Source: a virus. From it: a DNA stretch of 24,750 nucleotides. Shown here one piece after another: positions 39 through 24,750 of this stretch (position 1 is its first letter; every line of letters starts with the position of its first letter). A model generated the notes under the pieces. It did no database searches, was not told the DNA's origin, and saw nothing but the letters and a program-made list of their open reading frames with translations. Location: positions 1-24,750 of IMG/VR virus record IMGVR_UViG_3300023278_000782. One strand, given 5' to 3'. Position numbers and translations under genes: made by a program.

Positions 39-1148
39 ATGACAGACTTTATACCCCAGATTGAACCATGGATCGATGACAGCGAACTCAAAGAATTGAG
101 GCGAGTTATTGAGTCTACTTATGTCGTCGAGCATGATTTAACAAAAGAGTTTGAGAGTATGATTTGTGATCTGACAGGATCCAAGTACGCAGTCGCTATG
201 ACTAATGGTACTGTGGCTCTCTTCTGTTGCCTGAAGGCATTGGGTATCGGTAAGGGTGATGAAGTCATAGTCCCGAACATGACGTTCATTGCTTCAGCTA
301 ATGCAGTTCTTCTGTGTGGAGCAACACCTGTTTTATGTGAAGTTGATCCATACACTTTCTGTATGAGAGTCGAGGACATAGAAGCTTGTGTATCTGATTC
401 TACAAAGGCAATTATGCCTGTACATCTTTATGGTCAGTGTGCAGATATGAATTCTATTATGGACTTTGCAAATGAACGGAACATACAGGTAGTCGAGGAC
501 GCTGCGCAGGGTGTTGGTGTTCTTCTTGATGATCAACATGTTGGAACCTTTGGTCAGTTTGGTGTTCTATCTTTCTACGGAAACAAGACATTGACATGTG
601 GTGAGGGTGGAGTCATTATAACTGATGATAAGGATCTTAGGGACTGTTGTTATCGTCTCAAGAATCATGGTCGGGATGGTAAGGGAACATTCAAACACGA
701 TCATATTGGATATAATTTTTGCTTTACTGAAATGCAAGCAGCAGTGGGTATTTCCCAGATGAAAAAACTTACTGCTATCATTGAAAAGAAAAAGCAAATT
801 CATGACCTATATGTGAAGGAGCTTTCTGATATCTCACCCTGCTTCACTCCAGTCCATAAGGCAGATGGTTGTACCCCAGTCTATTGGTTTACTTCCTTTA
901 TGTGTGACAAGAAGACCGAGCTGATTGAATACATGAGATCTAAAAATATTCAAACTAGAGAATTCTTTTATCCACTAAACGATCAACCCTGTTACGCAGA
1001 AGAAGACTCTGTTCGAATGCCCGTAGATTATACTAATAGTATGGATCTTTTCAATAGAGGTATATCATTACCTTCTTCTTATAACCTCACAGAAGAAAAT
1101 CAGATAGCTGTTATAAATACACTGAAAGAATGGTTGTTTAAAAACTAA
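39..1148 (+). CDS. DegT/DnrJ/EryC1/StrS PLP aminotransferase, possibly GDP-perosamine synthase-like
   Basis: 369 aa, the usual length for this fold-type I PLP family. Visible motifs are a TNGTVAL segment (residues 55-61), the GDEVIVPNMTFIASANAV block (73-90), EDAAQ with the cofactor-binding Asp154, and FYGNKTLTCGEGG, whose Lys183 is the expected Schiff-base lysine. The family transaminates 4-keto (or 3-keto) nucleotide sugars using glutamate. The two GDP-mannose 4,6-dehydratases downstream would supply GDP-4-keto-6-deoxymannose, so a GDP-perosamine synthase is my best guess for substrate; that part is inferred from neighbours, not from residues. ATG at 39 follows a possible upstream stop (TGA at 1-3). 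The ribosome site is weak. The next gene begins 9 bases after the stop, as in an operon. A different amino sugar is equally possible. Confidence 0.9.
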   Translation: MTDFIPQIEPWIDDSELKELRRVIESTYVVEHDLTKEFESMICDLTGSKYAVAMTNGTVALFCCLKALGIGKGDEVIVPNMTFIASANAVLLCGATPVLCEVDPYTFCMRVEDIEACVSDSTKAIMPVHLYGQCADMNSIMDFANERNIQVVEDAAQGVGVLLDDQHVGTFGQFGVLSFYGNKTLTCGEGGVIITDDKDLRDCCYRLKNHGRDGKGTFKHDHIGYNFCFTEMQAAVGISQMKKLTAIIEKKKQIHDLYVKELSDISPCFTPVHKADGCTPVYWFTSFMCDKKTELIEYMRSKNIQTREFFYPLNDQPCYAEEDSVRMPVDYTNSMDLFNRGISLPSSYNLTEENQIAVINTLKEWLFKN

Positions 1149-1157
1149 GGATTTATT

Positions 1158-2291
1158 ATGAAGTGGAAGTTGATGACAGATGAGGCTATTAGTAGAGATC
1201 AACGAGAGGTTCTCAGTGATTTCGTGCTAAATGAGGATAAGTTGACTCAGGGCCCTGTTGTTAAAGAATTTGAAAAAGCATGGTCTGAGTGGTTGGGTTG
1301 TAAGTACTCAGTCTTTGTCAATTCCGGATCGTCTGCAAATCTAGCAATCACACGAGCGTTATCTGGTATAGAACAGAAACCATTATGGGTTTCTCAGGCG
1401 TGTACATGGGCTACTGCTGTTACACCTATCATGCAGTTTGCAAGACTTCAATTGTGTGATGTTGATCTGAAAAACTTTGGTCCAGATCTAGAGAACTTGG
1501 AACACATCTTCCAGACACATAAACCAAAATTCTTGTCTCTGACCCACCTTCTGGGTTTTCCTGCCATAACAGACGAGCTTATTTCGTTGTGCGAAAAGTA
1601 TGGAGTTACTCTAGTCGAGGATTGCTGTGAGTCACATGGAGCTTCGTTTAAGGGTAAGAAGGTGGGAACTTTCGGTATTGCGTCATCCTTCTCATTCTAT
1701 TATGGTCACCACATGACCACGATGGAGGGCGGTATGATCTGCACCGACGATGAAAACTTATACCACGAATTACTACTTCTCCGTTCGCATGGTTTACTTC
1801 GTGAGCTTCCAGAAGAAGAGCAGAAGAAGAGAGTCTCTAATCGGGTTGATCCTTTGTTCACATTCTTGCGTGATGGATTCAACATCAGAAGCACCGATCT
1901 CCATGCCAAGCTAGGGTTACTACAGCTACCAAATCTTGATTCTGCCATAGAAGAAAGAAATGAAAACTTTAGTTTGTTCTTGAGAAAGCTAGATCCAGAA
2001 TCTTTCCGAACAGATTTTGATGTTGAGGGTTGTAGCAATTTTGCCTTCCCTATCTTCACAAAGAACAATAACATTGATGATATTAAGAATCTTTTACGAG
2101 AAAACGACGTAGAATATAGACCCTGTATTGCAGGTAATTTATACGAGCATCCCTTCATGAATTTTGTTGAACAATCTAGGTTTGATAAGAATGCAAATGA
2201 AATTCATAACAATTGTATATACATCGGTAATCACAAAGATATCACACATGATATGATCACGGATATTTGTGACAAACTAAATAGACTATAA
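1158..2291 (+). CDS. PLP-dependent sugar 3-dehydratase of DegT fold with His in place of Lys (ColD/RfbH type)
   Basis: 377 aa, DegT fold. The motif that holds the catalytic lysine in aminotransferases reads SFYYGHHMTTMEGG here, and His184 aligns with Lys183 of the preceding gene. That Lys-to-His change is the hallmark of the 3-dehydratases ColD (GDP-4-keto-6-deoxymannose 3-dehydratase) and RfbH/E1 (CDP sugar), which use PLP or PMP to remove the C3 hydroxyl. Other family motifs are kept: NSGSSAN (55-61) and EDCCESHG (154-161). With two GMD genes in the same operon, GDP-4-keto-6-deoxymannose is the likely substrate and GDP-4-keto-3,6-dideoxymannose the likely product, as in colitose synthesis. 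No ColC-like epimerase/reductase is seen in the window. The start is supported by AAGGA at 1147-1151, six bases before the ATG. Confidence 0.87.
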   Translation: MKWKLMTDEAISRDQREVLSDFVLNEDKLTQGPVVKEFEKAWSEWLGCKYSVFVNSGSSANLAITRALSGIEQKPLWVSQACTWATAVTPIMQFARLQLCDVDLKNFGPDLENLEHIFQTHKPKFLSLTHLLGFPAITDELISLCEKYGVTLVEDCCESHGASFKGKKVGTFGIASSFSFYYGHHMTTMEGGMICTDDENLYHELLLLRSHGLLRELPEEEQKKRVSNRVDPLFTFLRDGFNIRSTDLHAKLGLLQLPNLDSAIEERNENFSLFLRKLDPESFRTDFDVEGCSNFAFPIFTKNNNIDDIKNLLRENDVEYRPCIAGNLYEHPFMNFVEQSRFDKNANEIHNNCIYIGNHKDITHDMITDICDKLNRL

Positions 2292-2306
2292 TGGAGATTT
2301 ATTATA

Positions 2307-2795
2307 ATGCAGTCCGTAAAAAACAATGACCAACCACCATTCGAATATCATCATGATTCTATGTCATTGAAGGGTAATTTTTTTGGACATTTCGGTCGAG
2401 TGGTTGAACCCGGATCGACTGTTCTAGAATTTGGTAGTGGTAAAGGAACAGAGAATCTAGTTAAATTGGGATACAATGTTTTTTCTGTCGAAGAACATGA
2501 GCACTTCTGTGGTTTGTATCACGAACAATATATTCATGCCCCCATAGTTGATGGTTGGTACGACAAAAAGATTGTGTTGGATTTTGTAAAGAAAATTAAA
2601 TATGATGTGATCATAGTAGATGGTCCTGCACATGGTGAGAGAAAAAAGATTATGGAAATCCTAGATGAACTTGATACCACAGTTCCAATTTTCGTTGATG
2701 ATATGAACAGAAAAGAAGACAGGGAACTGTTTGGTTTGATTTCAGGAAAAGATAGAAAGACATTTGACCATGGTGATTATGGATACATTATATGA
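2307..2795 (+). CDS. small class I SAM-dependent methyltransferase-like protein
   Basis: 162 aa with a Rossmann-type core. TVLEFGSGKGTENL (residues about 38-51) looks like the glycine-rich SAM-binding motif I. NVFSVEEHEHF follows as the acidic motif II strand, then DVIIVDGPAHGERKK and PIFVDDMNR as later core strands. The protein is short: it has the nucleotide-binding core but little room for a separate substrate domain. In this sugar operon it may methylate a sugar hydroxyl or amino group of the glycan, but nothing in the sequence fixes the acceptor. GGAG at 2293-2296 precedes the ATG by 10 bases, and the stop overlaps the next start by 4 bases (ATGA), suggesting coupled translation. Confidence 0.65.
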   Translation: MQSVKNNDQPPFEYHHDSMSLKGNFFGHFGRVVEPGSTVLEFGSGKGTENLVKLGYNVFSVEEHEHFCGLYHEQYIHAPIVDGWYDKKIVLDFVKKIKYDVIIVDGPAHGERKKIMEILDELDTTVPIFVDDMNRKEDRELFGLISGKDRKTFDHGDYGYII

Positions 2796-3730
2796 TTAAC
2801 ATTACACGAGAAACACACCCGGATTTATATTTTGATTACAGAAAGACCTTAGACTTTCTTGGTTCGATTAAGGAAGAAGATTACGAATACCCAGAAGAGG
2901 TTACTAATTTTCATGTCTATACTGAGGCAAGATCACCAAAAGAACTGGAAGCAATCAAGTCGTACATTGCAACACAGAATTTAGACAAAACTAAATTAAC
3001 TGTCTGGTCTGAATACGATATCAGTGAGCAAGAAAACATTCAACCATACAAGGACATTGTTGATCTCAAAGTGTATTCTGCCGATGAAGTATCAGAAGGT
3101 ACACCATTAGAGGGAAACAGTAAATACACAAACGTGTCTGATGATGACAGACACTGGATGTCGAGTGGTATCATGCGCTTCTTAGTTCTCTACAAGTTCG
3201 GTGGAATTTACATGGACATGGACATGATTCTTCTCCGAGACTTCAAACCAATTCTGGATCAGAACTTTGCTTACCAGTGGGGATCATCCATGGACTTCGC
3301 AAAGGAAAGAAGATGGGAACCTGACTGTCATGGACCATGTGCCGCCATGTTGGGTGCAGTCAAGGGAAGTGAATACATTGAGAGTTGCATGGAGCAACTG
3401 TTGAGGACACCAATCAGAACAAGAACCACTTGTTTCGATGAGGACATGCTTGGACCTGTGTACGCTAAAAATCCAAATGCATTTACAGTCTTCCCATCAC
3501 CCTTCTTTGATTGTGATTGGCTTGTTAGTAAGGTTGATGAACCATTAAGTAGAGAAGCTGAAGCTGCTTGGTTTGAAAACCCCACTGATCCAAGTAATCT
3601 GTTCTTGGAGTCATTTGCATGGCACTGGCATAACTCATCTAATAAACATAAAACTATAGTTGAAGGATCTAAGTTCTCTCTACTTAAAGATAGAAACGAT
3701 AAGGTTCTGAAAGAAATGGGAATAATTTAA
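2792..3730 (+). CDS. DXD glycosyltransferase (Gly_transf_sug/OCH1-like, capsular polysaccharide type)
   Basis: 312 aa. The block SGIMRFLVLYKFGGIYMDMD (125-144), continuing into ILLRDF, is the signature of the Gly_transf_sug DXD family: an R...L..GGIY helix followed by Asp142-x-Asp144, which binds the metal and the nucleotide-sugar diphosphate. The C-terminal SFAWHWHNSS is also typical of this family, where a late His often completes the active site. The family moves mannose, galactose or related sugars from nucleotide donors to glycans. Donor and acceptor cannot be read here. There is no signal peptide or membrane helix, so it should act in the cytoplasm. Its ATGA start overlaps the methyltransferase-like gene, and its stop overlaps the next start by 1 base (TAATG). 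Confidence 0.85.
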   Translation: MINITRETHPDLYFDYRKTLDFLGSIKEEDYEYPEEVTNFHVYTEARSPKELEAIKSYIATQNLDKTKLTVWSEYDISEQENIQPYKDIVDLKVYSADEVSEGTPLEGNSKYTNVSDDDRHWMSSGIMRFLVLYKFGGIYMDMDMILLRDFKPILDQNFAYQWGSSMDFAKERRWEPDCHGPCAAMLGAVKGSEYIESCMEQLLRTPIRTRTTCFDEDMLGPVYAKNPNAFTVFPSPFFDCDWLVSKVDEPLSREAEAAWFENPTDPSNLFLESFAWHWHNSSNKHKTIVEGSKFSLLKDRNDKVLKEMGII

Positions 3731-4722
3731 TGAAGAAGAAAGTCGCTCTTATTACTGGCATCGCCGGACAGGATGGTTCTTATCTAGCAGAATTCCTACT
3801 GTCAATTGGATATGAAGTTCACGGAATTCTAAGAAGGAACTCGGTATCAGAAAATCAAACATCACGGTTGGGTAGTTGCTACGAACAGTTGAATTTGCAC
3901 TATGGTGACATGACTGATCTCGCATCGCTCATCACGGTTCTCCAGAAGTGTAAACCTGATGAAGTCTATAATCTTGCCGCACAGTCACACGTCAGAGTTA
4001 GCTTTGATGTTCCCATCGAAACATCAACAGTGACTGGACTTGGTGCTCTCAATCTACTAGAGGCATGTAAGTTAATCTGTCCAGAAACCAAGATTTATCA
4101 GGCAAGCTCTTCTGAAATGTTTGGTAACTGTATTGATGAGGATGGATTCCAGAGAGAGACTACGCGAATGCTTCCTGTAAGTCCGTATGGGTGTGCAAAA
4201 TTATTCGCTTTTAATGCTTGCAGAAACTACAGAAATGCTTATGATATGTTTATATGTAATGGGATTCTATTCAATCACGAGTCACCAAGAAGAGGTTCTA
4301 ATTTTGTGACAAATAAAATTGTCAAGGGCGCAGTAGCTATTGCAATGGGTGAAGCAACTGATTTGAAGTTGGGTAACCTTGATGCAAGAAGAGACTGGGG
4401 ACATGCAAAGGATTATGTCAGAGCAATGTGGATGATGCTACAAGCAGATAAACCAAAGGATTATGTTTGCTCTACTGGAGTTTCTCACAGTGTTCGGAAT
4501 GTCTGTGAATATGTCTTTGCAAAGCTCGGTATGAATTACAAAGACTATATTGTCATTGGAGAGAAGTATCTCAGACCAGAGGAACTTCACGATCTCAAGG
4601 GTGATTCGACTCTACTCAGAGAAGAGCTGGGTTGGGAACCAGAATATAGCTTTGATAGCATGTTTGACGAGATGATTCTCAGTACAGAGAATTATTACAA
4701 CGCAGTAGAAAAGGTTGATTGA
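3730..4722 (+). CDS. gmd: GDP-mannose 4,6-dehydratase (first copy)
   Basis: 330 aa short-chain dehydrogenase. It has the NADP-binding glycine motif GIAGQDG (10-16), RR at 35-36, the catalytic SSSEMFG (126-132) corresponding to the Thr-Ser-Glu of E. coli GMD, and Tyr153-x3-Lys157 in SPYGCAK. The GMD-specific NHESPRRGSNFVTNK supports GMD over other sugar dehydratases. It converts GDP-mannose to GDP-4-keto-6-deoxymannose, the branch point for fucose, perosamine, rhamnose and colitose. It is a little shorter than typical bacterial GMDs (about 345-370 aa). It shares strong protein similarity with the second copy at 5725-6720, including 45 of 47 identical bases near 4255-4301. It starts 1 base inside the preceding stop. 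Confidence 0.95.
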   Translation: MKKKVALITGIAGQDGSYLAEFLLSIGYEVHGILRRNSVSENQTSRLGSCYEQLNLHYGDMTDLASLITVLQKCKPDEVYNLAAQSHVRVSFDVPIETSTVTGLGALNLLEACKLICPETKIYQASSSEMFGNCIDEDGFQRETTRMLPVSPYGCAKLFAFNACRNYRNAYDMFICNGILFNHESPRRGSNFVTNKIVKGAVAIAMGEATDLKLGNLDARRDWGHAKDYVRAMWMMLQADKPKDYVCSTGVSHSVRNVCEYVFAKLGMNYKDYIVIGEKYLRPEELHDLKGDSTLLREELGWEPEYSFDSMFDEMILSTENYYNAVEKVD

Positions 4723-4724
4723 TA

Positions 4725-5129
4725 ATGGATTATATTAAGTCAAAAGTTGATGATTCTCTACTTCATATCATCAATCGAAAAGAAGAGATTACTGCTCGGA
4801 CTAATGTATGTCCAGATGATGAGTTTCTACAACTAGCAACTATGCGCATGCCTCTTGGTATGACATTCAAGCCACACAAGCACATCTACAAAGATGGACC
4901 GAAGGAAGTAATCGCACAGGAATCTTGGATTGTAATTCAAGGTAAAGTTAAAGTAATTCTTTATGATATTGACGATACGATCATACATGAAGATGTTATA
5001 TTTCCCGGTGACTGTTCAATTACTTTCAAGGGTGGTCACAACTATGAAATACTGGAAGATGATACCATTGTTTATGAATATAAAACAGGTCCGTATCAGG
5101 GAATAGAAATGGATAAAGATTTTATCTGA
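4725..5129 (+). CDS. cupin-fold protein of sugar biosynthesis clusters
   Basis: 134 aa from ATG 4725. A TTG two codons upstream (4719) is possible, but ATG with AAGG at 4711-4714 is simpler. The single cupin domain shows FKPHKH (His51, His53), QES about 12 residues later (Glu66), a WIVIQGKVKVILYD strand pair and a second-motif His105 in FKGGHNYE. These are the expected metal ligands of a cupin barrel. Small cupins like this (WbuC-like, or FdtA/WxcM ketoisomerases) occur in O-antigen clusters. The metal-ligand set argues against a plain FdtA-type ketoisomerase but does not exclude isomerase or epimerase activity. It sits between the two gmd copies, and its stop overlaps the next start by 1 base (TGATG). 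Confidence 0.72.
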   Translation: MDYIKSKVDDSLLHIINRKEEITARTNVCPDDEFLQLATMRMPLGMTFKPHKHIYKDGPKEVIAQESWIVIQGKVKVILYDIDDTIIHEDVIFPGDCSITFKGGHNYEILEDDTIVYEYKTGPYQGIEMDKDFI

Positions 5130-5728
5130 TGAAAGCTGTTGAAGATTTTGAAAATGCTATAGCAGAGTTTTACGGTGCGCCTTACGCAGTTGCCGTTGAC
5201 TGTTGTACCCACGGTGTGGAACTTTGCTTAAGGTATAAGGACTTACGTTGGTTAACCGTCCCATGTAGAACCTACCTTTCGATTCCCATGCTCGCACAGA
5301 AGTTGGATATTGGTCTTACTTTTACTGAGGAGGAATGGAAAGATTATTACGAGATCCGTGGGTGGATTGGGAAACCAACTGGTGTTATTGATGCTGCCGT
5401 TTTCTGGAAGCGTGATGGATACATTCCCGGTAAATTCATGTGTCTTAGTTTTCAGTTTCAAAAGCACTTGAGTCTTGGTAGAGGTGGTATGATCTTAACA
5501 GATGATGCTGATGCTGCAAAGAAATTGAAGAAGATGTCATATGATGGTCGAGAACCAAACGTTCCTTGGAGGGAACAGAACATAGACACAATGGGCTATC
5601 ATTATTACATGACACCAGAGACTGCTGAAATTGGTATAAATAAATTACAGAAAGCAATTAAAACTGAACCTCGTGAATGGACAGTGCAAGACTGGCCAGA
5701 TCTTAGAGACATGGAGATTTTTAAATGA
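5129..5728 (+). CDS. miniature DegT-like PLP-fold protein
   Basis: 199 aa, about half the length of a normal DegT aminotransferase. It keeps a recognisable skeleton: an N-terminal FENAIAEFYGAPYAVAVDCC (FE.....G..YAVAV pattern), GVIDAA with Asp88 where EDAAQ normally sits, and SFQFQKHLSLGRGGMILTDD with Lys112 at the Schiff-base position. It then has KKMSYDGRE, resembling RLKNHGRDG, and PETAEIGINKL, resembling TEMQAAVG. Much of the segment between strands and nearly all of the C-terminal domain of the usual fold are missing. There is no frameshift or stop and the ends are tightly coupled (1-base overlap upstream, 4-base ATGA downstream), so it looks like a maintained gene rather than debris. 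It may be an aminotransferase, a dehydratase partner, or a subunit for the larger DegT proteins. Confidence 0.72.
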   Translation: MKAVEDFENAIAEFYGAPYAVAVDCCTHGVELCLRYKDLRWLTVPCRTYLSIPMLAQKLDIGLTFTEEEWKDYYEIRGWIGKPTGVIDAAVFWKRDGYIPGKFMCLSFQFQKHLSLGRGGMILTDDADAAKKLKKMSYDGREPNVPWREQNIDTMGYHYYMTPETAEIGINKLQKAIKTEPREWTVQDWPDLRDMEIFK

Positions 5729-6720
5729 AGAACGTGGCATTGATTACTGGTATTGCTGGACAGGATGGAAGTTACTTGTCCGAACATCTTATTGAACGTG
5801 GATATGAAGTTCATGGTGTAGTTCGTAGACAGTCTACTGCCGAAAATCAAGAATCTAGATTGGATCATCTTAGTGGTCAGGTTACCACACACTATGGTGA
5901 TCTACTCGATGTTCCATCACTTACCCGGATTTTCTTGGAAACTAAACCAACACATATTTTCAATCTAGGTGCAATGAGTCATGTTCGGATTAGTTTCGAT
6001 CTTCCTTCATTTACCATTCAGAGCAACTCTCTTGGTGTGTTGAACATGTTGGAATTGTATCGAGAGTTCTGTCCCACTGCAAAATTCTATCAAGCATCCT
6101 CATCTGAGATGTTTGGTAACTGTGTTGATGAAGACGGATTCCAAAGAGAGACCACAGGATTTAATCCTGTTAGTCCTTATGGATGCTCGAAGCTCCTTGG
6201 ATATAACTTGGTGCGTCATTATAGAAACGCCTACAATCTACATGCCTGTAATGGAATTCTATTCAATCACGAGTCACCAAGACGAGGTTCTAACTTCGTT
6301 ACTAACAAGGTAGTAAAGACCGCAGTACAAATTAAACTTGGCTTGACAGATGTTCTTGAGCTTGGTAATATGGATTCGTATAGGGATTGGGGTCACTCTA
6401 AAGACTATACGAGAGGAATGTTAGATATCATCAATCACGAAACACCAGATGACTTTGTTCTTTCTACAGGAGAAACTCATTCGGTTCGAGATTTATGTAA
6501 AACAGTATTTAATTATTTGGATATGGACTATAATGATTATGTCGTTCAGAATCCAAAGTACATGAGACCAGAAGAACTAAACTATCTAAAGGGTGACTGT
6601 ACAAAAGCAAAGAACACTTTAAATTGGAAAACAAAATATACTTTCGAAAGTATGATACATGAGATGGTTGATTATTGGATGAACTCACTTTCAACTACTC
6701 ATATGGAGATTAACTCATGA
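5725..6720 (+). CDS. gmd: GDP-mannose 4,6-dehydratase (second copy)
   Basis: 331 aa paralogue of the gene at 3730-4722, with the same motifs: GIAGQDG (9-15), RR (34-35), SSSEMFG (125-131), Tyr152-x3-Lys156 in SPYGCSK, and NHESPRRGSNFVTNK. Both copies keep all catalytic residues, so this is not obviously a reductase (RMD) or an inactive copy. The two may form one mixed tetramer or have different regulation or stability. GGAG at 5713-5716 sits 8 bases before the ATG. Start and stop both overlap neighbours through ATGA (5725-5728 and 6717-6720), placing it firmly inside the sugar operon. Confidence 0.95.
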   Translation: MKNVALITGIAGQDGSYLSEHLIERGYEVHGVVRRQSTAENQESRLDHLSGQVTTHYGDLLDVPSLTRIFLETKPTHIFNLGAMSHVRISFDLPSFTIQSNSLGVLNMLELYREFCPTAKFYQASSSEMFGNCVDEDGFQRETTGFNPVSPYGCSKLLGYNLVRHYRNAYNLHACNGILFNHESPRRGSNFVTNKVVKTAVQIKLGLTDVLELGNMDSYRDWGHSKDYTRGMLDIINHETPDDFVLSTGETHSVRDLCKTVFNYLDMDYNDYVVQNPKYMRPEELNYLKGDCTKAKNTLNWKTKYTFESMIHEMVDYWMNSLSTTHMEINS

Positions 6721-7976
6721 GAGATAAAAAAGTTACACTATGCATGATTGTCAAGGATGAGACTCACATTATTGAGCAATGTCTCCGCTCTATGGCAAAG
6801 TATGTTGACAGATACGATATTACAGATACTGGATCCACTGACGGAACTCCAGAACTAATCAAGAAGACGATGGATGAATTGGGTATACCCGGAGAAGTTC
6901 ATCTTGCTGACTGGAAGGGATTCGGTGATCATGCAAATAGGATTGGTTCACGTACAGAAGCCTTCCATAACGCAGAAAAATCTGATGCTGATTATGCATG
7001 GGTCATCGATGCTGATGACTACATTGAGGGTGATTTTGAATATCCCAAGAAGATGGATGCCGATGGATATACTCTTCTAATCAAGAGGGGTGACTTCTCT
7101 TGGTGGAGAAACCAGATATTCAAACTAGACCTCGGTTGGAGATACGTTGGTATTCTACATGAGTATGCTGATGCAACCAAGAAGAGTCCTGCTGTGTTTC
7201 AGAAGGTTGCTGGTAATTATAATATCACCGCACGAACTGAAGGTAATAGGAATGTCGGAATCACTCCAGTTGAGAAATACTCTCGTGATGCCGAAACTCT
7301 ACTTGGTGCTATTGAAGATGAGCCTGATAATCCCCGCTACCATTTCTACCTAGCACAGAGTTACTTTGATTCTCAGCAGTGGGAAAAGTCAAGGGAAGCA
7401 TATAAGAAGCGAGTTGAATTGGGTGGGTGGAATGAAGAAGTATTTTACTCACAGTTCCGTGTAGGACTTCTTTGTGCGATCATGCAGGAACCACCAGAGG
7501 TTACTATTCATGAGTTTACCTGCGCCTATAATATTAGACCAATCCGCGCAGAACCTCTTGTTGAGATCTCTAAGATTTACAGGTCGATTGAAAAACCTGC
7601 TGCCGCATACATCTTTGCAAAGCAGGCACTTGAGACACCATATCCAGCAGAGGATATTCTATTCATCAGTGAGGATGTATATCGCTACGGTGCTTTGGAT
7701 GAAATCTCTGCTACTGCTTTCTATGCGGGACGCGCTCTTGAGGGTTACAATGCGACTAAGAAGTTGATACAAGAAAACCTTGTACCAGAAGAACATAAGA
7801 AGCGTGTTCAGGATAACATGGAGCAATACGAAAAGGTTATGGCTGGCGCCCAACAGCAGCAAATGCAGGCAAACATGGAAGATCAGGTTAAGAAAATTCA
7901 AGAGAAAAAGAAGCTCAAAGAACAATCAAAATCTGATGGTACTAAATATAAGAAAAAGAAAGCACGAAGTAGGTAA
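6717..7976 (+). CDS. GT2 glycosyltransferase with C-terminal helical (TPR-like) repeats and basic tail
   Basis: 419 aa. The GT-A domain fills the N-terminal half: LCMIVKDE (8-15), DTGSTDGT (37-44) and the metal-binding DADD (98-101) are classic family 2 motifs. From about residue 190, segments such as EPDNPRYHFYLAQSYFDSQQ (206-225) and REAYKKRVELGGWNEEVFY resemble TPR helices, as in SunS-like GT2 proteins, and may hold the acceptor protein. The last 60 or so residues are Gln-rich (AQQQQMQ) and then strongly Lys-rich, ending YKKKKARSR, probably a disordered tail. GGAG at 6705-6708 precedes the ATG by 8 bases. It is the last gene of the sugar cassette and lies 5 bases before the collagen-like virion gene, so it may glycosylate a virion protein. 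Confidence 0.9.
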   Translation: MRDKKVTLCMIVKDETHIIEQCLRSMAKYVDRYDITDTGSTDGTPELIKKTMDELGIPGEVHLADWKGFGDHANRIGSRTEAFHNAEKSDADYAWVIDADDYIEGDFEYPKKMDADGYTLLIKRGDFSWWRNQIFKLDLGWRYVGILHEYADATKKSPAVFQKVAGNYNITARTEGNRNVGITPVEKYSRDAETLLGAIEDEPDNPRYHFYLAQSYFDSQQWEKSREAYKKRVELGGWNEEVFYSQFRVGLLCAIMQEPPEVTIHEFTCAYNIRPIRAEPLVEISKIYRSIEKPAAAYIFAKQALETPYPAEDILFISEDVYRYGALDEISATAFYAGRALEGYNATKKLIQENLVPEEHKKRVQDNMEQYEKVMAGAQQQQMQANMEDQVKKIQEKKKLKEQSKSDGTKYKKKKARSR

Positions 7977-18160: not shown

Positions 18161-18363
18161 CAGAATTTGAATATAATCGTGATGATATTCCACAAGAAGT
18201 TTTATTGGAAATCGTTTTAGAGTTTAACAGAAATTTTGCTAGTTACGTAAGAGAAGTTGATGCTGACTTGTTTGAAAGAGCCAAGGATTATGCTCGATCA
18301 TTTACAGAGCTAGAAGGATATGATATTACATTTTTAGATATAGAGAGTGATGACAATGACTAA
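18157..18363 (+). CDS. small hypothetical acidic protein
   Basis: 68 aa from ATG 18157, which overlaps the primase stop (ATGA). GGAA at 18147-18150 lies six bases upstream, so I prefer this to the TTG four codons earlier. The sequence is acidic and mainly helical (PQEVLLEIVLEFNRNFASYV, DLFERAKDYARSF) and ends in IESDDND. No family recognised. Its last few codons overlap the start of thyX. Confidence 0.6.
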   Translation: MTEFEYNRDDIPQEVLLEIVLEFNRNFASYVREVDADLFERAKDYARSFTELEGYDITFLDIESDDND

Positions 18364-19087
18364 GGTTCTTAATAAAGGCTATGTGGATCTTGTTGATCAT
18401 ATGGGTACAGATCTAACGGTAGTAAATGCTGCCCGTGTATCGTTCGATAAAGAGAGTGACTGGGGCTATGACGAAGAAGCAGTAAAGAATATTACTGGAC
18501 ACAATTGGAGTGAGGTAAGACTAAAGGAAGAGTTTAAGTGTTTATCTGATAAAGATGAGAAACTTATTAATTATCTTGCAAAACATAAACACTGGACACC
18601 ATTCGCCCACCCACAGATTACATTAAGGATCAAGGCACCAATCTCGATTCGGACACAGTTCTTCAAGCACAAGCAAGGATTTGTTGAGAATGAAATCAGT
18701 CGTCGATATGTTTCATTCAAACCAGACTTTTACATACCACAATGGAGAGGTAAGCCTGAAGGTAGTGCAAAGCAAGGTAGTGAAGAATTTATGGCGATAA
18801 AGGGTGAAAATGTTCGCTCATATGGTAATGCTATGGAACTCTGTCTCTATACCTATGATCAACTCATTGCAGAAGGTGTCGCACCAGAACAGGCTCGTTT
18901 CGTATTACCACAGGCAATGTTTACTGAATGGTACTGGACTGGTTCCCTTTCTGCATATGCTAGATTCTACAGTCAGCGGAGCGATGAACATGCTCAGTGG
19001 GAGATTCGCGAGTATGCTAGAGTCATCGGTGATATAATCCAGCCGTTGTTTCCCTCCTGTTGGGAGGTTCTCACAAAGTATAAATAG
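18356..19087 (+). CDS. thyX: flavin-dependent thymidylate synthase ThyX
   Basis: 243 aa from ATG 18356, which has GAGAG 8 bases upstream; in-frame GTG 18347 and ATG 18350 are possible alternatives. It shows the ThyX start pattern (LVDHMGTDLTVVNAARVSF), HKHWTPFAHPQITLRIKAPI (about 77-96) and FAHPQ, then the signature region KHKQGFVENEISRRY (about 104-118), and AQWEIREYARVIGDIIQPLF at the end. It makes dTMP from dUMP using FAD and folate, downstream of dut in the same pathway. The signature is a variant of RHRxxSxNExSxRY: both Arg are Lys, the first Ser is Phe, and there is one extra residue. Folate and dUMP contacts still look possible through ENEISRRY. Confidence 0.93.
   Translation: MTKVLNKGYVDLVDHMGTDLTVVNAARVSFDKESDWGYDEEAVKNITGHNWSEVRLKEEFKCLSDKDEKLINYLAKHKHWTPFAHPQITLRIKAPISIRTQFFKHKQGFVENEISRRYVSFKPDFYIPQWRGKPEGSAKQGSEEFMAIKGENVRSYGNAMELCLYTYDQLIAEGVAPEQARFVLPQAMFTEWYWTGSLSAYARFYSQRSDEHAQWEIREYARVIGDIIQPLFPSCWEVLTKYK
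19079..19086 (+). promoter_or_regulatory. T4-type late promoter octamer TATAAATA
   Basis: A perfect match to the T4 late promoter recognised by gp55 with gp33 and the clamp. It overlaps the thyX stop codon and sits 20 bases before the ATG of a virion-type gene, with AGAAGGAG just upstream of that start. This is the boundary where replication genes give way to virion genes, which is where a late promoter is expected. A random AT octamer would appear roughly once per strand in a window of this size, so position is the main support. Confidence 0.65.
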
Positions 19088-19105
19088 ATGAGAAGGAGAC
19101 GCTAA

Positions 19106-19582
19106 ATGCCAATTTACTGCAATAATTATGATATCAATCTTTATCAGGGACAGTCATACTTTTTAGACCTAGACTACACTGATGTCAATGACGAAGTTGT
19201 TGATCTCAATGGTGCCACATTTGAAGCAAGAATGCAGATTAGACGCTCTCCTCTAGTAGAAGAAAAGTTAGTAGCCATGAGCAGTGATTACTATCCCAAG
19301 GGTGTCGTTGGTGGTGGTATCACAGGATACTTCACTGGACCGGGATTTGGTTTACCCGAAGGGACCACTGGTGATTATATGGGTTTAATTGGTACTGGAG
19401 GAATCACTCTAAATTATGGTGGTGAATTGGGCACAATTCGGATTGAAATAGATGCCGCTACTACAGCAAATATTCCCGCTGGTAGACACTTCTATGACCT
19501 AGATGTGCGTAACAAATCAATCAATTTTGTTGATAAAGTTATAACCGGAACATTTGAAGTTTTGAGCGAAGTAACCCGATAA
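19106..19582 (+). CDS. phage virion protein, beta-rich (baseplate/fibre-associated type)
   Basis: 158 aa. The N-terminus (INLYQGQSYFLDLDYTDVND, then LNGATFEARMQIRRSP) and the C-terminus (GTIRIEIDAATTANIPAGRH, YDLDVRN, GTFEVLSEVTR) match the pattern of a small beta-sandwich protein seen in many phages near baseplate and fibre genes: oxygen-rich strands, an IPAGR turn and an EVTR end. A Gly-rich middle (VVGGGITGYFTGPGFGLPEG) interrupts the fold. No enzyme motif. It follows the late promoter and precedes the giant ORF, so the two are probably expressed late together. The exact tail position is unknown. Confidence 0.75.
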   Translation: MPIYCNNYDINLYQGQSYFLDLDYTDVNDEVVDLNGATFEARMQIRRSPLVEEKLVAMSSDYYPKGVVGGGITGYFTGPGFGLPEGTTGDYMGLIGTGGITLNYGGELGTIRIEIDAATTANIPAGRHFYDLDVRNKSINFVDKVITGTFEVLSEVTR

Positions 19583-19626
19583 AATTACTACATAATAGGA
19601 CTATTTTTATCTGAAATGGAGCCTAT

Positions 19627-22600
19627 ATGTCATCTTACGGATCAAGTCCCAGCAATCTGAATAATACAAACACCACGAATGTGACCTCTTCTTCAACGTC
19701 ATCTTCTTCAACGTCATCTTCTTCAACGTCATCTTCTTCAACGTCATCTTCTTTTACGAATTTAAACGTAACATCAAATAGAGGGGTTTATTCTCCATCT
19801 AGTGTAAATATAAATTCTACCACCAGTATAGGGCTGACCAATGTAACACCTCCACCTAGTACTCCATCATCCCAACGATCACAGACTCTTCGTTCAACCA
19901 CTCAATACCCACATCAAGTCACATTACAATATTCAACTAAGACAAACTTTGCCTATGATCAGAGCGATAAATACTTTGATGATGCAATTACCCCATATAA
20001 AGAAGAAAGTCAAACTGACGATCAAACACCAGAATATAAAGAAGATGAAACATATGGAATAGAAACGAAGACCATTTATTGGACTATAGGATCAAACGAA
20101 GCATTTAGCTATGGTTACCACTTAGACGGAACGCCATATGTACACGATAACAGTAATATTCCGGGTGGTAATGGTGGTTTGTATTTAGTTAGTACTACTG
20201 ATAGTGATGGTGGACCAAGAACAGAATTCAACGCATGGTATGAACCTGTTGAAATTTCTAGAACTGCAATCAACCCAGATAATGCTAAACTTCCTTCAGA
20301 GCACATTGGTCAAATGTCCCGAGGTGCTCAAGAGGGTGATATTTCCTTTACGTATGATCCAGATGCTCCAGAGGGATCGCGACACAATATAGAAATTGAA
20401 TTGAAACCTTGGATAGGAATTTCGGATTACCATTATGGTTCCATTCCTGCTGGACGTGGATATAATGATGGTGATTACAGCTCTGAAAGTAACAGTAATC
20501 CACCGCTCAATGGTATACCCGGTATTTCGGAAAGAAATACAGAACAGAATGCCGGCAACAATTATGGTACAGGTTTATTCTCCCAGAGTTATGTTTATCC
20601 GAATTACTATGACGGCCGTGGTCAAATGATTACTACTGGTCTCAATCAACTTCCCAGAGACCAAGTACTTGATGCAAATGTTGACAAAGCAAGCGATGAT
20701 ACTATTAATCCCGGAAATGAAGGGTGGATTGCCGCATATAGAGACGCCCCACGCAGTACCGACGAACCTGCCATCCCCGGAATCCTTTCTACAGGTGCTC
20801 CATGGCTCACCGAAGGTCAGTGGTTAACCATTGAAGAGGTTGTTGATAACAATTATTACGGAGAAGGTAAAAGTAATACTACTGGCTATAACTACTTGAC
20901 AGTGATTGAAGGAGTGCGGGGTAATAGATGGGCACCGGGAACAGGATCATTACCACCTACTGCGGCGTATGACTTTGCTGTTGCTAATAGTGGTATGATC
21001 AAGGATAGAGATGATATCGAAAGATGGAGTGGTCAGTATAATTATGAAGATAATAGTGGGGACCCATACCAACTAAAAGCAAATGATCTGATCGTTACTC
21101 AGGCCAGTCACTGGGATCACAGAGGCGTTGAGCAGATGAGAAAATATTGTAGACAGAGATATGAATTATATACTCTGATGAAGGCTGAATACACATCAGC
21201 TACACTAATGGATAGTGACGACTGGGCTACGGCAAATTTCGATATCGATATTCGAGACAATGGAAAGCTAGAGAAATTCAATTGGTATAGATTCGATGGA
21301 AAATTTCCTGTGTTCCCAATAAGCTTTATGAAGAATGGTACGGAAATTGAATTTGAAATTACTGATACTTTTGATGATTTAATCAAAGATAATCAGGACT
21401 TATATGGTTCTTTACCTGTTAATGACGCATCAGAAGGTGGACCGGGAGCAACAACTTTCCGTGAATATGCAGAAGCTGTTACGAATGATTACAGTGCGGG
21501 TGGTCTTGACAATAAAATTGATCCGTATAAAGGTTGGGGTCATTTATGCAGTAAATGGGACCGATATCCTTTCATTGATATGACAGCTTGTTTGTCTGTA
21601 GTTCCCCCAATTGAATTAATCGGAGACATCGCGGCCGCGGATTTTGATCAATCCGGTCAAGTGGATGGTGATGACCTTCTACAGATTTTAGCAAACTGGG
21701 GTACTACACCGAAAGACGAGAATTGGAGACCAGAATTAGATCTTAATGGTGATGGAATAGTTGATGCCGCAGACCTTACGATTCTTTTGGATGCATGGCA
21801 AAATCAGGGAGGATCGGTTCTTGATTATAGCAAGACTTTCAGACCTCCATTAAACTGGGATCCTACCGATAGAGGTTCTGTGCCATATATTACAGAGATT
21901 GATAATATTGAAGACTATACTATAGATGGTCCGGGTGCAAAGCCTCTTGCAGAAGGGATTAACCCGGCTACAGATATTCCTGTTGGTCAGATTGGATACC
22001 CTAATAAAGCTATAGATGGTGGTACAGCACAGGCATGGGAAATTTATACCGCCGACCCGAACCAAGGAACATACAAAGCTAATGACTATCCTTCAGGTTT
22101 GCAGATGAGTCTTACTGACACTTATTGGCCAGAATTAAAAATAGCTAGTAAAGAGGAACTGCGAGGTGATGGTGATCCTAATGACCCAACTACTTGGGAT
22201 TTTGAGTCTACTGTTAGACGAGCACAAGGATTAGGAAAAGCTCCAGCTAAGTATTTACGGCTCGGTGGTCATATATTATGGCATACCGCAGCAGAAAGTG
22301 ATAACAGAGTTCAGGGTTGTCATGGTGGATATGACTTATCTCTCAGTAACTACGGATCTCAGGAGGGTTGTGAGTATGAGTTATTATCAATGCTGGCATT
22401 TGATAGGAATCTAGATCCAGAAAATCTCAATAGTGCCGATAGGAATACCAATAAAAATATCAGCCCGTCTATTAGTTGGATTCGTGAACATTATGGCACC
22501 GATTGGGATCTAAAACCCGATCCAAACTCGACCAACGGAGATCTGATAGCCAAACGAGATAATTTTAGTCTTCGTCAGGTCATTAGGAGAGCATTAACCC

Positions 22601-24750
22601 AGAGAGGTATTGATATCTACGGTGGCCAGAGATCCGGCGGTAAATATATTGTACACAATGCAGGACACACCGACTGGTGGGATGTTGTAGCTATAATAGG
22701 TCTTAGTTGTACACAGCACGAAGACTGGGTTGATATGTTAAATACAGGTTCGATGGGTAGTAAAAAGACTGGTACACTCAAAAACTTTTCTCATCAGATT
22801 CCTAAAACTGATGAGAACGGAGACCCAAATCAAGACTATACTTACGGTGAAATGAATAACGTGGGAACTTTCCCCGGAGATATTGGTCACATGGGGGCCG
22901 AGGGAATGTCTAATCTGACTAATGTTCCCGGTAGTCACAAACAGGGTAACGGTCTAGGAGCTTATACACACAATTCCCTTAGATTCAAAGATCTATCAGT
23001 CAAGACGGTAAATGACTTCACCATTATACCATACCCAGATGATACTGGCGAGTCTATAAACCTATTTCCCGGTAAACCAATTCGACCGGAAAACTTGCCA
23101 AACGTGTTCCCCAATCAGTTAATTACTGTCTATCCCCCAGTTGGTGGTCAATGTGGTAATCAAATCGATAATCTTTATTATAGACTGAAAGAAATTGTGG
23201 ATGCAGATAAGGTAGATACTGAACGGACAGATGCGGATATACGAGATCGCAGTTGGAGAGGTCTATATACGCAAAACATACAGAACTCCGACAGCACTAT
23301 TGAACACGTAAAGGGTGATGATGTGACCACTTGGGTCGGGACAGATACTAAGGATAAGCCTTGGGGATCACCTGCACCAATGCCTGATCAACCATTGAAC
23401 AATCTCCAGTCTGGTGTGGAACCTGAGTGGGTCGCAGAAACAGATGAACCACATTCATTTTTGGTAGGAGTGTCTACAGAAAATCTTGTCCGATACGATG
23501 ACCAATTTTTTAATATAATGCGTGTAAAACTAGATGAAAATGGTAATGAACAACTAGATGAAAATGGTAATAGAGTTTTTGAAACTAATGGTAACTATTA
23601 TAGACCTCACAAAGAGCTATGGAGACATATTGAGGAGGATTTCAGACCAATTAACCGATGGGAGTTTGATGATGGTGATGGTGTTTGTGATGATAGCTAT
23701 GCTCTTCAATATACCCTGAGAGCACTAGACGATGCGACACAGGAAGACACTAAATATGCTCCATTGAATGGTATATACCCACGAGGGTATGATCCAATTA
23801 AGGGTGGTAATAACAAACATTGGGGTCTACTTACCAATCAAGATTATATGTCCTCCAACTATCATAGAGGGCTTTATGTAAAAAATACAACAATGGAATT
23901 AGATGCAACTGGTGTATTAGTTGAGGGTCCGCGATATGGTGAGATTTCAGTAATACTCGCAAGCATAACTGAACATGTTCGCAACTCTGAGTGTGTCAAG
24001 GTTAGTGCTGTGGGAACTAAGCCAAGAATCATAGATACTGTTAATGCTATGAACCCCGGTGCATCTAGTGTGCAATTAGAAGGTGGAAGAGAGAGTATTA
24101 GTGGTAAGAATGATAATACTGATCTTGGACCTACCGCTAGAGCTATGAATTTTCTTCTTCTAGATGATATAGGATTGAAAGAAGACCTTGATGCCGGCCG
24201 GAATGTTACAGTTGATATCGCACATAATCTAGAGGTTGATTTTGAGGATCCGGATGTACCAATGCCCAGTGTTAATAGTTGGGCAAACGGTGGTGGGTAT
24301 GGTAATGTTGCGTCCTTTGGTGGTTTCAAATCATATGACTATGTATATAATAGAGGAGCATTTTCGTTTGGTATGGCTGCAAGAATGTTTACTGGAATTA
24401 AAGACGAAGATAAACAAGATTCAACGAAGGTAAGACATAAACCACTAAGTGTTATCCTAGATGCCCTGCCCGCATATTATGCTAAATTGTTTGTTAAATA
24501 TCCTACGTTTTGGAATAATCCTTTAGGAAGATCTATCACAGAGGAAGATACAAACTCACTGCATAGTATATTTCTTGGTGGTAATTCACAGGGAGTTGGT
24601 TGGAGTGATGGAAGGTCAGATGTCAAGCTTGCTAATCATCAGGATCGTGGCGATCCTAATGATAATGTCAAGGATAATTTCTATGGTGGTGATCAATGGC
24701 CGGAACTTATACGCGCCCTGTTCAATCAAGAACTATTAGGTCGTATTAGT
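19627..24750 (+). CDS. giant virion-type protein with Ser/Thr repeat and dockerin-like domain (partial, runs off window)
   Basis: An ATG at 19627, with GGAG at 19618-19621 five bases upstream, opens a frame that stays free of stops for 1708 codons and is still open at the end of the window. Layout: a Ser/Thr tandem repeat (about residues 21-44), a disordered Asn/Pro/Ser region to about 120, then long Asn/Asp/Gly/Tyr-rich beta-like sequence. Two EF-hand-like loops with dockerin spacing occupy 672-724, followed by about 1000 more residues of similar composition, including a short duplicated LDENGN segment. There is no signal peptide or membrane helix. I do not recognise the large flanking regions and see no catalytic motif. 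Size, composition, late-promoter neighbourhood and the small virion gene before it suggest a tail, fibre or baseplate protein. Confidence 0.85.
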   Translation, partial: MSSYGSSPSNLNNTNTTNVTSSSTSSSSTSSSSTSSSSTSSSFTNLNVTSNRGVYSPSSVNINSTTSIGLTNVTPPPSTPSSQRSQTLRSTTQYPHQVTLQYSTKTNFAYDQSDKYFDDAITPYKEESQTDDQTPEYKEDETYGIETKTIYWTIGSNEAFSYGYHLDGTPYVHDNSNIPGGNGGLYLVSTTDSDGGPRTEFNAWYEPVEISRTAINPDNAKLPSEHIGQMSRGAQEGDISFTYDPDAPEGSRHNIEIELKPWIGISDYHYGSIPAGRGYNDGDYSSESNSNPPLNGIPGISERNTEQNAGNNYGTGLFSQSYVYPNYYDGRGQMITTGLNQLPRDQVLDANVDKASDDTINPGNEGWIAAYRDAPRSTDEPAIPGILSTGAPWLTEGQWLTIEEVVDNNYYGEGKSNTTGYNYLTVIEGVRGNRWAPGTGSLPPTAAYDFAVANSGMIKDRDDIERWSGQYNYEDNSGDPYQLKANDLIVTQASHWDHRGVEQMRKYCRQRYELYTLMKAEYTSATLMDSDDWATANFDIDIRDNGKLEKFNWYRFDGKFPVFPISFMKNGTEIEFEITDTFDDLIKDNQDLYGSLPVNDASEGGPGATTFREYAEAVTNDYSAGGLDNKIDPYKGWGHLCSKWDRYPFIDMTACLSVVPPIELIGDIAAADFDQSGQVDGDDLLQILANWGTTPKDENWRPELDLNGDGIVDAADLTILLDAWQNQGGSVLDYSKTFRPPLNWDPTDRGSVPYITEIDNIEDYTIDGPGAKPLAEGINPATDIPVGQIGYPNKAIDGGTAQAWEIYTADPNQGTYKANDYPSGLQMSLTDTYWPELKIASKEELRGDGDPNDPTTWDFESTVRRAQGLGKAPAKYLRLGGHILWHTAAESDNRVQGCHGGYDLSLSNYGSQEGCEYELLSMLAFDRNLDPENLNSADRNTNKNISPSISWIREHYGTDWDLKPDPNSTNGDLIAKRDNFSLRQVIRRALTQRGIDIYGGQRSGGKYIVHNAGHTDWWDVVAIIGLSCTQHEDWVDMLNTGSMGSKKTGTLKNFSHQIPKTDENGDPNQDYTYGEMNNVGTFPGDIGHMGAEGMSNLTNVPGSHKQGNGLGAYTHNSLRFKDLSVKTVNDFTIIPYPDDTGESINLFPGKPIRPENLPNVFPNQLITVYPPVGGQCGNQIDNLYYRLKEIVDADKVDTERTDADIRDRSWRGLYTQNIQNSDSTIEHVKGDDVTTWVGTDTKDKPWGSPAPMPDQPLNNLQSGVEPEWVAETDEPHSFLVGVSTENLVRYDDQFFNIMRVKLDENGNEQLDENGNRVFETNGNYYRPHKELWRHIEEDFRPINRWEFDDGDGVCDDSYALQYTLRALDDATQEDTKYAPLNGIYPRGYDPIKGGNNKHWGLLTNQDYMSSNYHRGLYVKNTTMELDATGVLVEGPRYGEISVILASITEHVRNSECVKVSAVGTKPRIIDTVNAMNPGASSVQLEGGRESISGKNDNTDLGPTARAMNFLLLDDIGLKEDLDAGRNVTVDIAHNLEVDFEDPDVPMPSVNSWANGGGYGNVASFGGFKSYDYVYNRGAFSFGMAARMFTGIKDEDKQDSTKVRHKPLSVILDALPAYYAKLFVKYPTFWNNPLGRSITEEDTNSLHSIFLGGNSQGVGWSDGRSDVKLANHQDRGDPNDNVKDNFYGGDQWPELIRALFNQELLGRIS
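19687..19758 (+). repeat. 15-base tandem repeat coding Ser/Thr
   Basis: Four perfect copies of TCTTCTTCAACGTCA (19687-19746) and a partial degenerate fifth to 19758. It codes for (SSSTS)n near the N-terminus of the giant protein. The copies are identical at DNA level, so they look recently expanded and probably vary in number between relatives. Confidence 0.95.
21640..21798 (+). other. type I dockerin-like domain within the giant protein
   Basis: Residues 672-724. Two 12-residue loops fit the calcium-binding pattern DxNxDGxxxxxD: DFDQSGQVDGDD (672-683) and DLNGDGIVDAAD (705-716). Each is followed by a short hydrophobic helix (LLQILANWG and LTILLDAW). The 33-residue spacing between loop starts and the loop-helix/loop-helix order match type I dockerins, which bind cohesins and fold on calcium. 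Ser at position 5 of loop 1 is a conservative change. Confidence 0.82.

Follow-up and report, generated by a model that had tools for sequence, protein, structure and literature searches.

A type I dockerin module as a loop insertion in a giant protein from the variable slot of an environmental T4-like phage

A giant protein encoded by a T4-like phage carries a short internal segment (residues 670-727, 21634..21807) that is confirmed as a type I dockerin as far as sequence and predicted structure can tell, by the PF00404 profile, an AF2 model, Foldseek and VIA-align. Bacteria use the dockerin, a calcium-folded plug, to attach surface enzymes to scaffolds, and dockerins are known from bacterial and archaeal extracellular complexes. 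The window, meaning the whole stretch of DNA analysed here, is a complete IMG/VR fragment of 24,750 bp (24.75 kb); most of that phage's genome lies outside it, and the giant, the features mapped within it, and the thyX and 158-aa protein genes upstream of it are on the plus strand (+). The module is very likely a domain insertion in a loop of the giant, and the sequences fit its gain as well as its loss. Our best reading, which we hold about as readily as we doubt it, is that an adhesin-like virion protein carries it as a tethering plug that folds with calcium.

In the giant open reading frame (19627..24750), which encodes 1708 aa and is still open where the contig ends, D672-FDQSGQVDGDDLLQILANWG and D705-LNGDGIVDAADLTILLDAW stand where the initial annotation had placed a type I dockerin, at residues 672-724, and both the coordinates and the loops of that proposal were correct. 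Calcium loop 1 covers residues 672-683 (DFDQSGQVDGDD, 21640..21675), with D, D, S, D and D at ligand positions 1, 3, 5, 9 and 12, and calcium loop 2 covers residues 705-716 (DLNGDGIVDAAD, 21739..21774), with D, N, D, D and D. The ligand columns of the loops are invariant or near-invariant across an alignment of 31 modules, comprising that of the window and 30 from fetched loci, and the module is conserved in two further contigs. A profile match to PF00404 had been anticipated. An 87-aa fragment exceeded the curated cut-off of 22.9 bits (26.7 bits, E 6e-6), as did a six-frame search of the genome (26.4 bits), while the whole 1708-aa protein scored slightly under it (20.6 bits, E 5e-4). The paired motif, which was defined after the sequence was seen, occurred in none of 20,000 shuffles of the protein. 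In the same profile search all EF-hand families fell under cut-off, and neither the giant nor any of its relatives matched another Pfam family besides PF00404 above cut-off. By inspection, the giant does not begin with a signal-peptide-like N-terminus. Its first residues (window 19627-19770) are a Ser/Thr-rich low-complexity stretch with TSSSS repeats, which varies in length and is shorter in the relative L002.

The predicted structure leaves little doubt about the fold; as modelled, the module almost certainly has that of a dockerin. The AF2 model, built from the 31-module alignment, has a mean pLDDT of 83.5, rising to 94-97 in the core. The only core helices of at least 4 residues are F-helix 1 (residues 681-689, 21667..21693) and F-helix 2 (residues 714-726, 21766..21804), one after each loop, and the full E-helix of an EF-hand is absent. 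The two EF-type loops with helix partners that had been read from the sequence agree with both the model and the ligand residues. In Foldseek against the PDB, the top 16 rows are all dockerin entries, and VIA-align returned dockerins in 19 of 19 rows. The best of these is 2ozn, the C. perfringens NagH dockerin (Z 9.1, 1.2 A over 55 residues), followed by 2y3n (Z 8.4). The top viral match in BFVD is A0A516MFS6, with 51% identity over 55 columns. A calmodulin-like EF-hand pair was rejected, as EF-hand profiles were under cut-off and calmodulins ranked far below dockerins in Foldseek. Profile searches pointing to an unrelated beta fold, or a predicted structure lacking paired calcium loops, had been named at the outset as results that could overturn the assignment; the profile is that of a dockerin, and the model has a dockerin fold with paired loops.

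The giant belongs to a family of six loci of 1600-1900 aa, found on IMG/VR contigs only. The first relative found, L002/L071, has 79% identity to the window giant across residues 1-1186, and further giants were sought among the 80 loci of related phages yielded by a gp61 scan. The giant of L076 is 49% identical over almost its full length, contains the module and passes the PF00404 cut-off clearly (34.9 bits, E 1.8e-8); those of L084, L088 and L089 are 27-38% identical by segment. Three giants (window, L002 and L076) have the module, two (L084 and L088) lack it at that point, and the sequence of L089 stops ahead of the site. The three with the module align as ...IDMTACLSVVPP-[dockerin]-YSKTFRPPLNWDPT.... 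The upstream flank IDMTACLSVVPPIEL (residues 650-664, 21574..21618) adjoins the downstream flank YSKTFRPPLNWDPT (residues 734-747, 21826..21867) in L088, which reads IDMYGALVCVPNDDVDYSERFRPPFNWDPT at the module site with its flanks contiguous. The downstream flank is conserved in L084 as well, where just 18 unrelated residues separate the flanks, and a profile search of L084 breaks precisely at the module. Since members exist with and without the module and the flanks can be contiguous, the module is very likely a loop insertion, and one that the giant does not require.

Neither the giant nor the module has a counterpart above chance in 50,697 GenBank phage records; the giant drew three chance matches of E 4-10. 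Modules of the type seen in a second phage protein, that of L052, gave three weak matches in unannotated faecal phage fragments. The giant matches no PHROG family and contains no collagen repeats, and a search of solved structures with the region downstream of the module gave no match.

Judged from its genes, the window phage is a T4-like (Kyanoviridae-related) myovirus known from environmental DNA only. Its gp43 DNA polymerase is 51-52% identical to those of cyanophages over the full length, and its gp61 primase was recognised by profile, which bears out the phage setting assumed in the initial annotation. UvsX-like and gp41-like ORFs were recognised from sequence and gene order, and the window also encodes ThyX and a collagen-like fibre, the latter with profile matches to collagen and tail-fibre families. 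Ahead of the fibre genes, window 39-7976 contains a run of sugar-nucleotide/glycosyltransferase-like genes that includes aminotransferases, two dehydratase-like ORFs and a GT2 enzyme.

Comparison of related phages defines a variable slot between thyX (18347..19087), its left edge, and an ORF of about 650 aa that reads by eye as a putative class II ribonucleotide reductase. The slot is empty in L104, L116 and L130, contains a collagen-like protein in L081, L083 and L123-L129, and contains other large ORFs in L100-L102. In six contigs it holds a 158-aa protein and a giant of this family, and in L091-L095 the 158-aa protein and a protein of 1250-1306 aa unrelated to the giant. In the window the 158-aa protein lies at 19106..19582 and matches phrog_1084 and phrog_3304, 'L-shaped tail fiber protein assembly'; it sits before the giant in all six giant-bearing contigs. 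Because the giant replaces collagen-like fibres in the slot and follows a fibre-assembly-like gene, we place it in the adsorption apparatus, among interchangeable genes of fibre/adhesin type. It is probably a virion protein, and slot context is the main ground for calling it so. The contents of window 18347-24750 and of related loci L081-L150 make this a hypervariable cargo slot.

Across 11.5 kb of aligned, ungapped DNA, the window agrees with L002/L071 at 94.5% of positions, and of the two exchanged segments that differ most between them, one is the first half of the dockerin. This patch covers residues 666-703 (21622..21735), that is, loop 1, helix 1 and the linker. Its synonymous difference (pS) is about 0.6, against 0.13 in the rest of the gene (Fisher p 1.6e-7). 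Loop 2 and helix 2, by contrast, hardly differ, and every calcium ligand is kept. Synonymous divergence this high speaks for recombination with a different allele and not for positive selection, to which the dN/dS of the diverged half (about 0.37, and about 0.5 across the module) gives no support. A diversity-generating retroelement was also rejected as the source of this half, as many of the differences are synonymous and all bases, not only A, have changed. Nor is the module uniquely variable, as a second patch outside the dockerin (residues 791-831, window 21997-22119) is equally diverged. That patch is indel-rich between the window and L002, with a synonymous difference of up to 0.7.

A tethering plug would work in the following way. 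The module would fold once both loops bind Ca2+, and would then project from the giant on the virion. The two F-helices would form a reversible protein-protein contact, which would tether the virion to a protein in the surface or matrix of the host or of cells nearby, be it a cohesin or something cohesin-like. The first half of the module would be swapped between strains with the calcium ligands retained. We favour this reading because the dockerin is a dedicated docking fold, because the module is dispensable yet keeps its loops intact down to 49% giant identity, and because the variable half spans loop 1 and helix 1, which in known dockerins are part of the face used for cohesins. Against it, the module is internal, no cohesin exceeded cut-off in 39 phage contigs (mostly fragments), the diverged half has a dN/dS of only about 0.37, the second patch lies outside the module, and an AF2 model of giant residues 445-1192, made from six sequences, has a pLDDT of 31. 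On balance, we lean slightly towards a module that binds a partner over one that serves as a spacer; that the partner is a cohesin seems rather doubtful.

Dockerins also occur elsewhere in phages. A scan of viral contigs with the module identified ten more contigs, with dockerins in at least six other protein contexts that include tail and baseplate types. The largest phage dockerin array in this survey is in a 2148-aa baseplate-wedge-like protein (L052:4713-11156), in which 15 tandem dockerins with 30 calcium loops occupy residues 783-1680; a wedge-type N-terminus precedes them and a C-terminal domain follows. PAAR-like and gp6-like genes were recognised nearby by eye. L054 has one dockerin in a shorter protein that weakly matches the families of the L052 protein, and L057 has one close to an N-terminus. 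A 260-aa family (MGYL...LSGN..RIYLSDYG) has the dockerin in its C-terminal half (L053:7500-8279 and L058:7500-8276). In L056 a phrog_1084 protein ends in a dockerin (L056:7656-8270, 35 bits); this contig looks siphophage-like, with tape measure and lysozyme-like ORFs by eye. Two proteins combine a signal-peptide-like start with a planctomycete-type dockerin (L055:7491-8315 and L059:3432-4484) and are possibly secreted or host-derived. Finally, L060 and L061 encode a 131-aa protein with a partial module, and that of L061 shares its contig with the module-less giant L084.

The L052 array, together with the missing cohesin, makes a calcium-rigidified spacer a serious rival, although one we consider less probable than a partner-binding role. 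As a spacer, the module would stiffen or space the giant, or guide its folding in environmental calcium, without any partner. Ig-like and other small domains pad phage fibres, and the internal position of the module, like that of the L052 tandem repeats between two end domains, would suit such a role. However, the giant has a single copy, the contiguous flanks of L088 indicate that the backbone can dispense with it, and a spacer has no obvious need to keep both dockerin helices and both calcium loops.

The initial annotation had proposed docking to a cohesin on the virion or host surface and a search of the genome and likely hosts for cohesins. On the phage side, PF00963 did not exceed its cut-off of 24.1 bits in the window or in 38 other phage contigs, most of them fragments; the best score was 12.9 bits. 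Four contigs of 136-157 kb have no dockerin above cut-off either, and are hence a weak test for cohesins. Among cellular genomes, cohesins exceeded cut-off in 5 of the 16 from Planctomycetota with the closest dockerins; all 16 have 10-80 dockerins each. None passes in the other 11, so a Pfam-type cohesin may not be the partner of many planctomycete dockerins at all. The phage-side result also weighs on an intra-virion clamp, in which the dockerin would dock the giant to another phage protein with a cohesin or a diverged cohesin-like domain. Most of the window phage's genome is unseen, and the L061/L084 phage has its partial dockerin on a separate small protein, both of which would allow for such a partner, but none of the 39 related or dockerin-bearing contigs has a cohesin above cut-off, and we regard the clamp as improbable.

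The module is of planctomycete sequence type, as judged by its cellular relatives. Among 84,980 species genomes of bacteria and archaea, a scan found 46 dockerin loci. Of these, 36 carry the name of Planctomycetota or one of its subgroups, predominantly Phycisphaerae; three more are in bins without a taxon name. The planctomycete dockerins share xDLxxLLxxW helices with the module, and the earlier remark that these helices resemble those of Planctomycetes was well founded. More than half of the cellular modules (26 of 46) end within 13 residues of the C-terminus; the phage module lies inside its protein, at residues 670-727 of over 1708. L006 and L008, two of the closest matches, are Planctomycetota bins named ZH-13MAY13, which may come from the study that proposed the planctosome.

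Planctomycete-type sequence and variable presence among relatives are what one would expect of a neutral passenger, a host-derived module captured through recombination and retained without function. This is very improbable, given that both calcium loops are kept in three phages with giants down to 49% identity, that dN/dS over the module is about 0.5, and that a similar module recurs in several unrelated phage proteins.

The host remains as speculative as it was first said to be. Searched at the DNA level, 298 Phycisphaerae genomes contained no convincing match of the CRISPR-spacer kind. Matches did occur in 22 of the 298, but nearly all were to GDP-mannose-dehydratase-like genes or to the Ser/Thr low-complexity start of the giant and establish no host link, and a CRISPR or prophage connection to Phycisphaerae was rejected. 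The dehydratase DNA of the window is 79-87% identical to some Phycisphaerae genomes over 45-81 bp. The T4-like phage with the module-less giant L084 also encodes a Porin_4 outer-membrane porin (L061:7266-8291, minus strand, 38.8 bits) and a beta-helix-like protein of 1059 aa that looks similar to secreted proteins of planctomycetes (L061:10629-13805, minus strand). A porin in a phage is unusual. A host link through these two proteins was rejected, as they match a minority of Phycisphaerae genomes at 26-43%. It is tempting to speculate that T4-like phages of Planctomycetota, or of cohabiting cells, use the adhesin dockerin to plug into the cohesins of host surface complexes as a hijacked receptor, while recombination exchanges recognition halves that are specific to each strain; we consider this unlikely.

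With a dockerin that can be inserted in a fibre-slot protein and arrayed in a baseplate-like one, phages would be shown to reuse a calcium-gated plug, and the insertion suggests that they can borrow it to hold on to something outside the cell. For phages of Planctomycetota, it would also single out a concrete candidate receptor system. The domain family itself is known. What is new, within searchable papers and the 50,697 GenBank phage records, is its place in a phage fibre-slot protein. The literature searched, with subscription journals mostly outside it, contained no report that any virion protein of a phage has a dockerin fold and no paper on phages isolated on Phycisphaerae; both are weak absences.

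The module shares with type I dockerins (PF00404) the two 12-residue DxNxDG-type calcium loops with a helix each, the profile and the predicted fold, but it lies within a phage protein and is internal instead of terminal. No enzyme or scaffoldin was recognised around it, and, unlike a cellulosomal dockerin enzyme, the giant has neither a recognisable catalytic domain nor a signal-peptide-like start. The closest sequences, with the same xDLxxLLxxW helices, are the C-terminal dockerins of Planctomycetota (Phycisphaerae), which mostly end their proteins, whereas that of the phage giant is a loop insertion. A cohesin-dockerin 'planctosome' has been proposed for freshwater Planctomycetes (PMC6461901). 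The collagen-like and other variable tail fibres of T4-like phages occupy the same slot downstream of thyX; the giant lacks collagen repeats and PHROG matches. A related phage case is gp02 of phage vB_EcoS_HSE2, reported from structure modelling to be similar to a dockerin-associated carbohydrate module (PMC5967307). Both cases place a cellulosome-like module in a phage structural protein; the gp02 template, 2wz8, is a carbohydrate-binding module according to its authors, and not a dockerin with paired calcium loops (PMC5967307).
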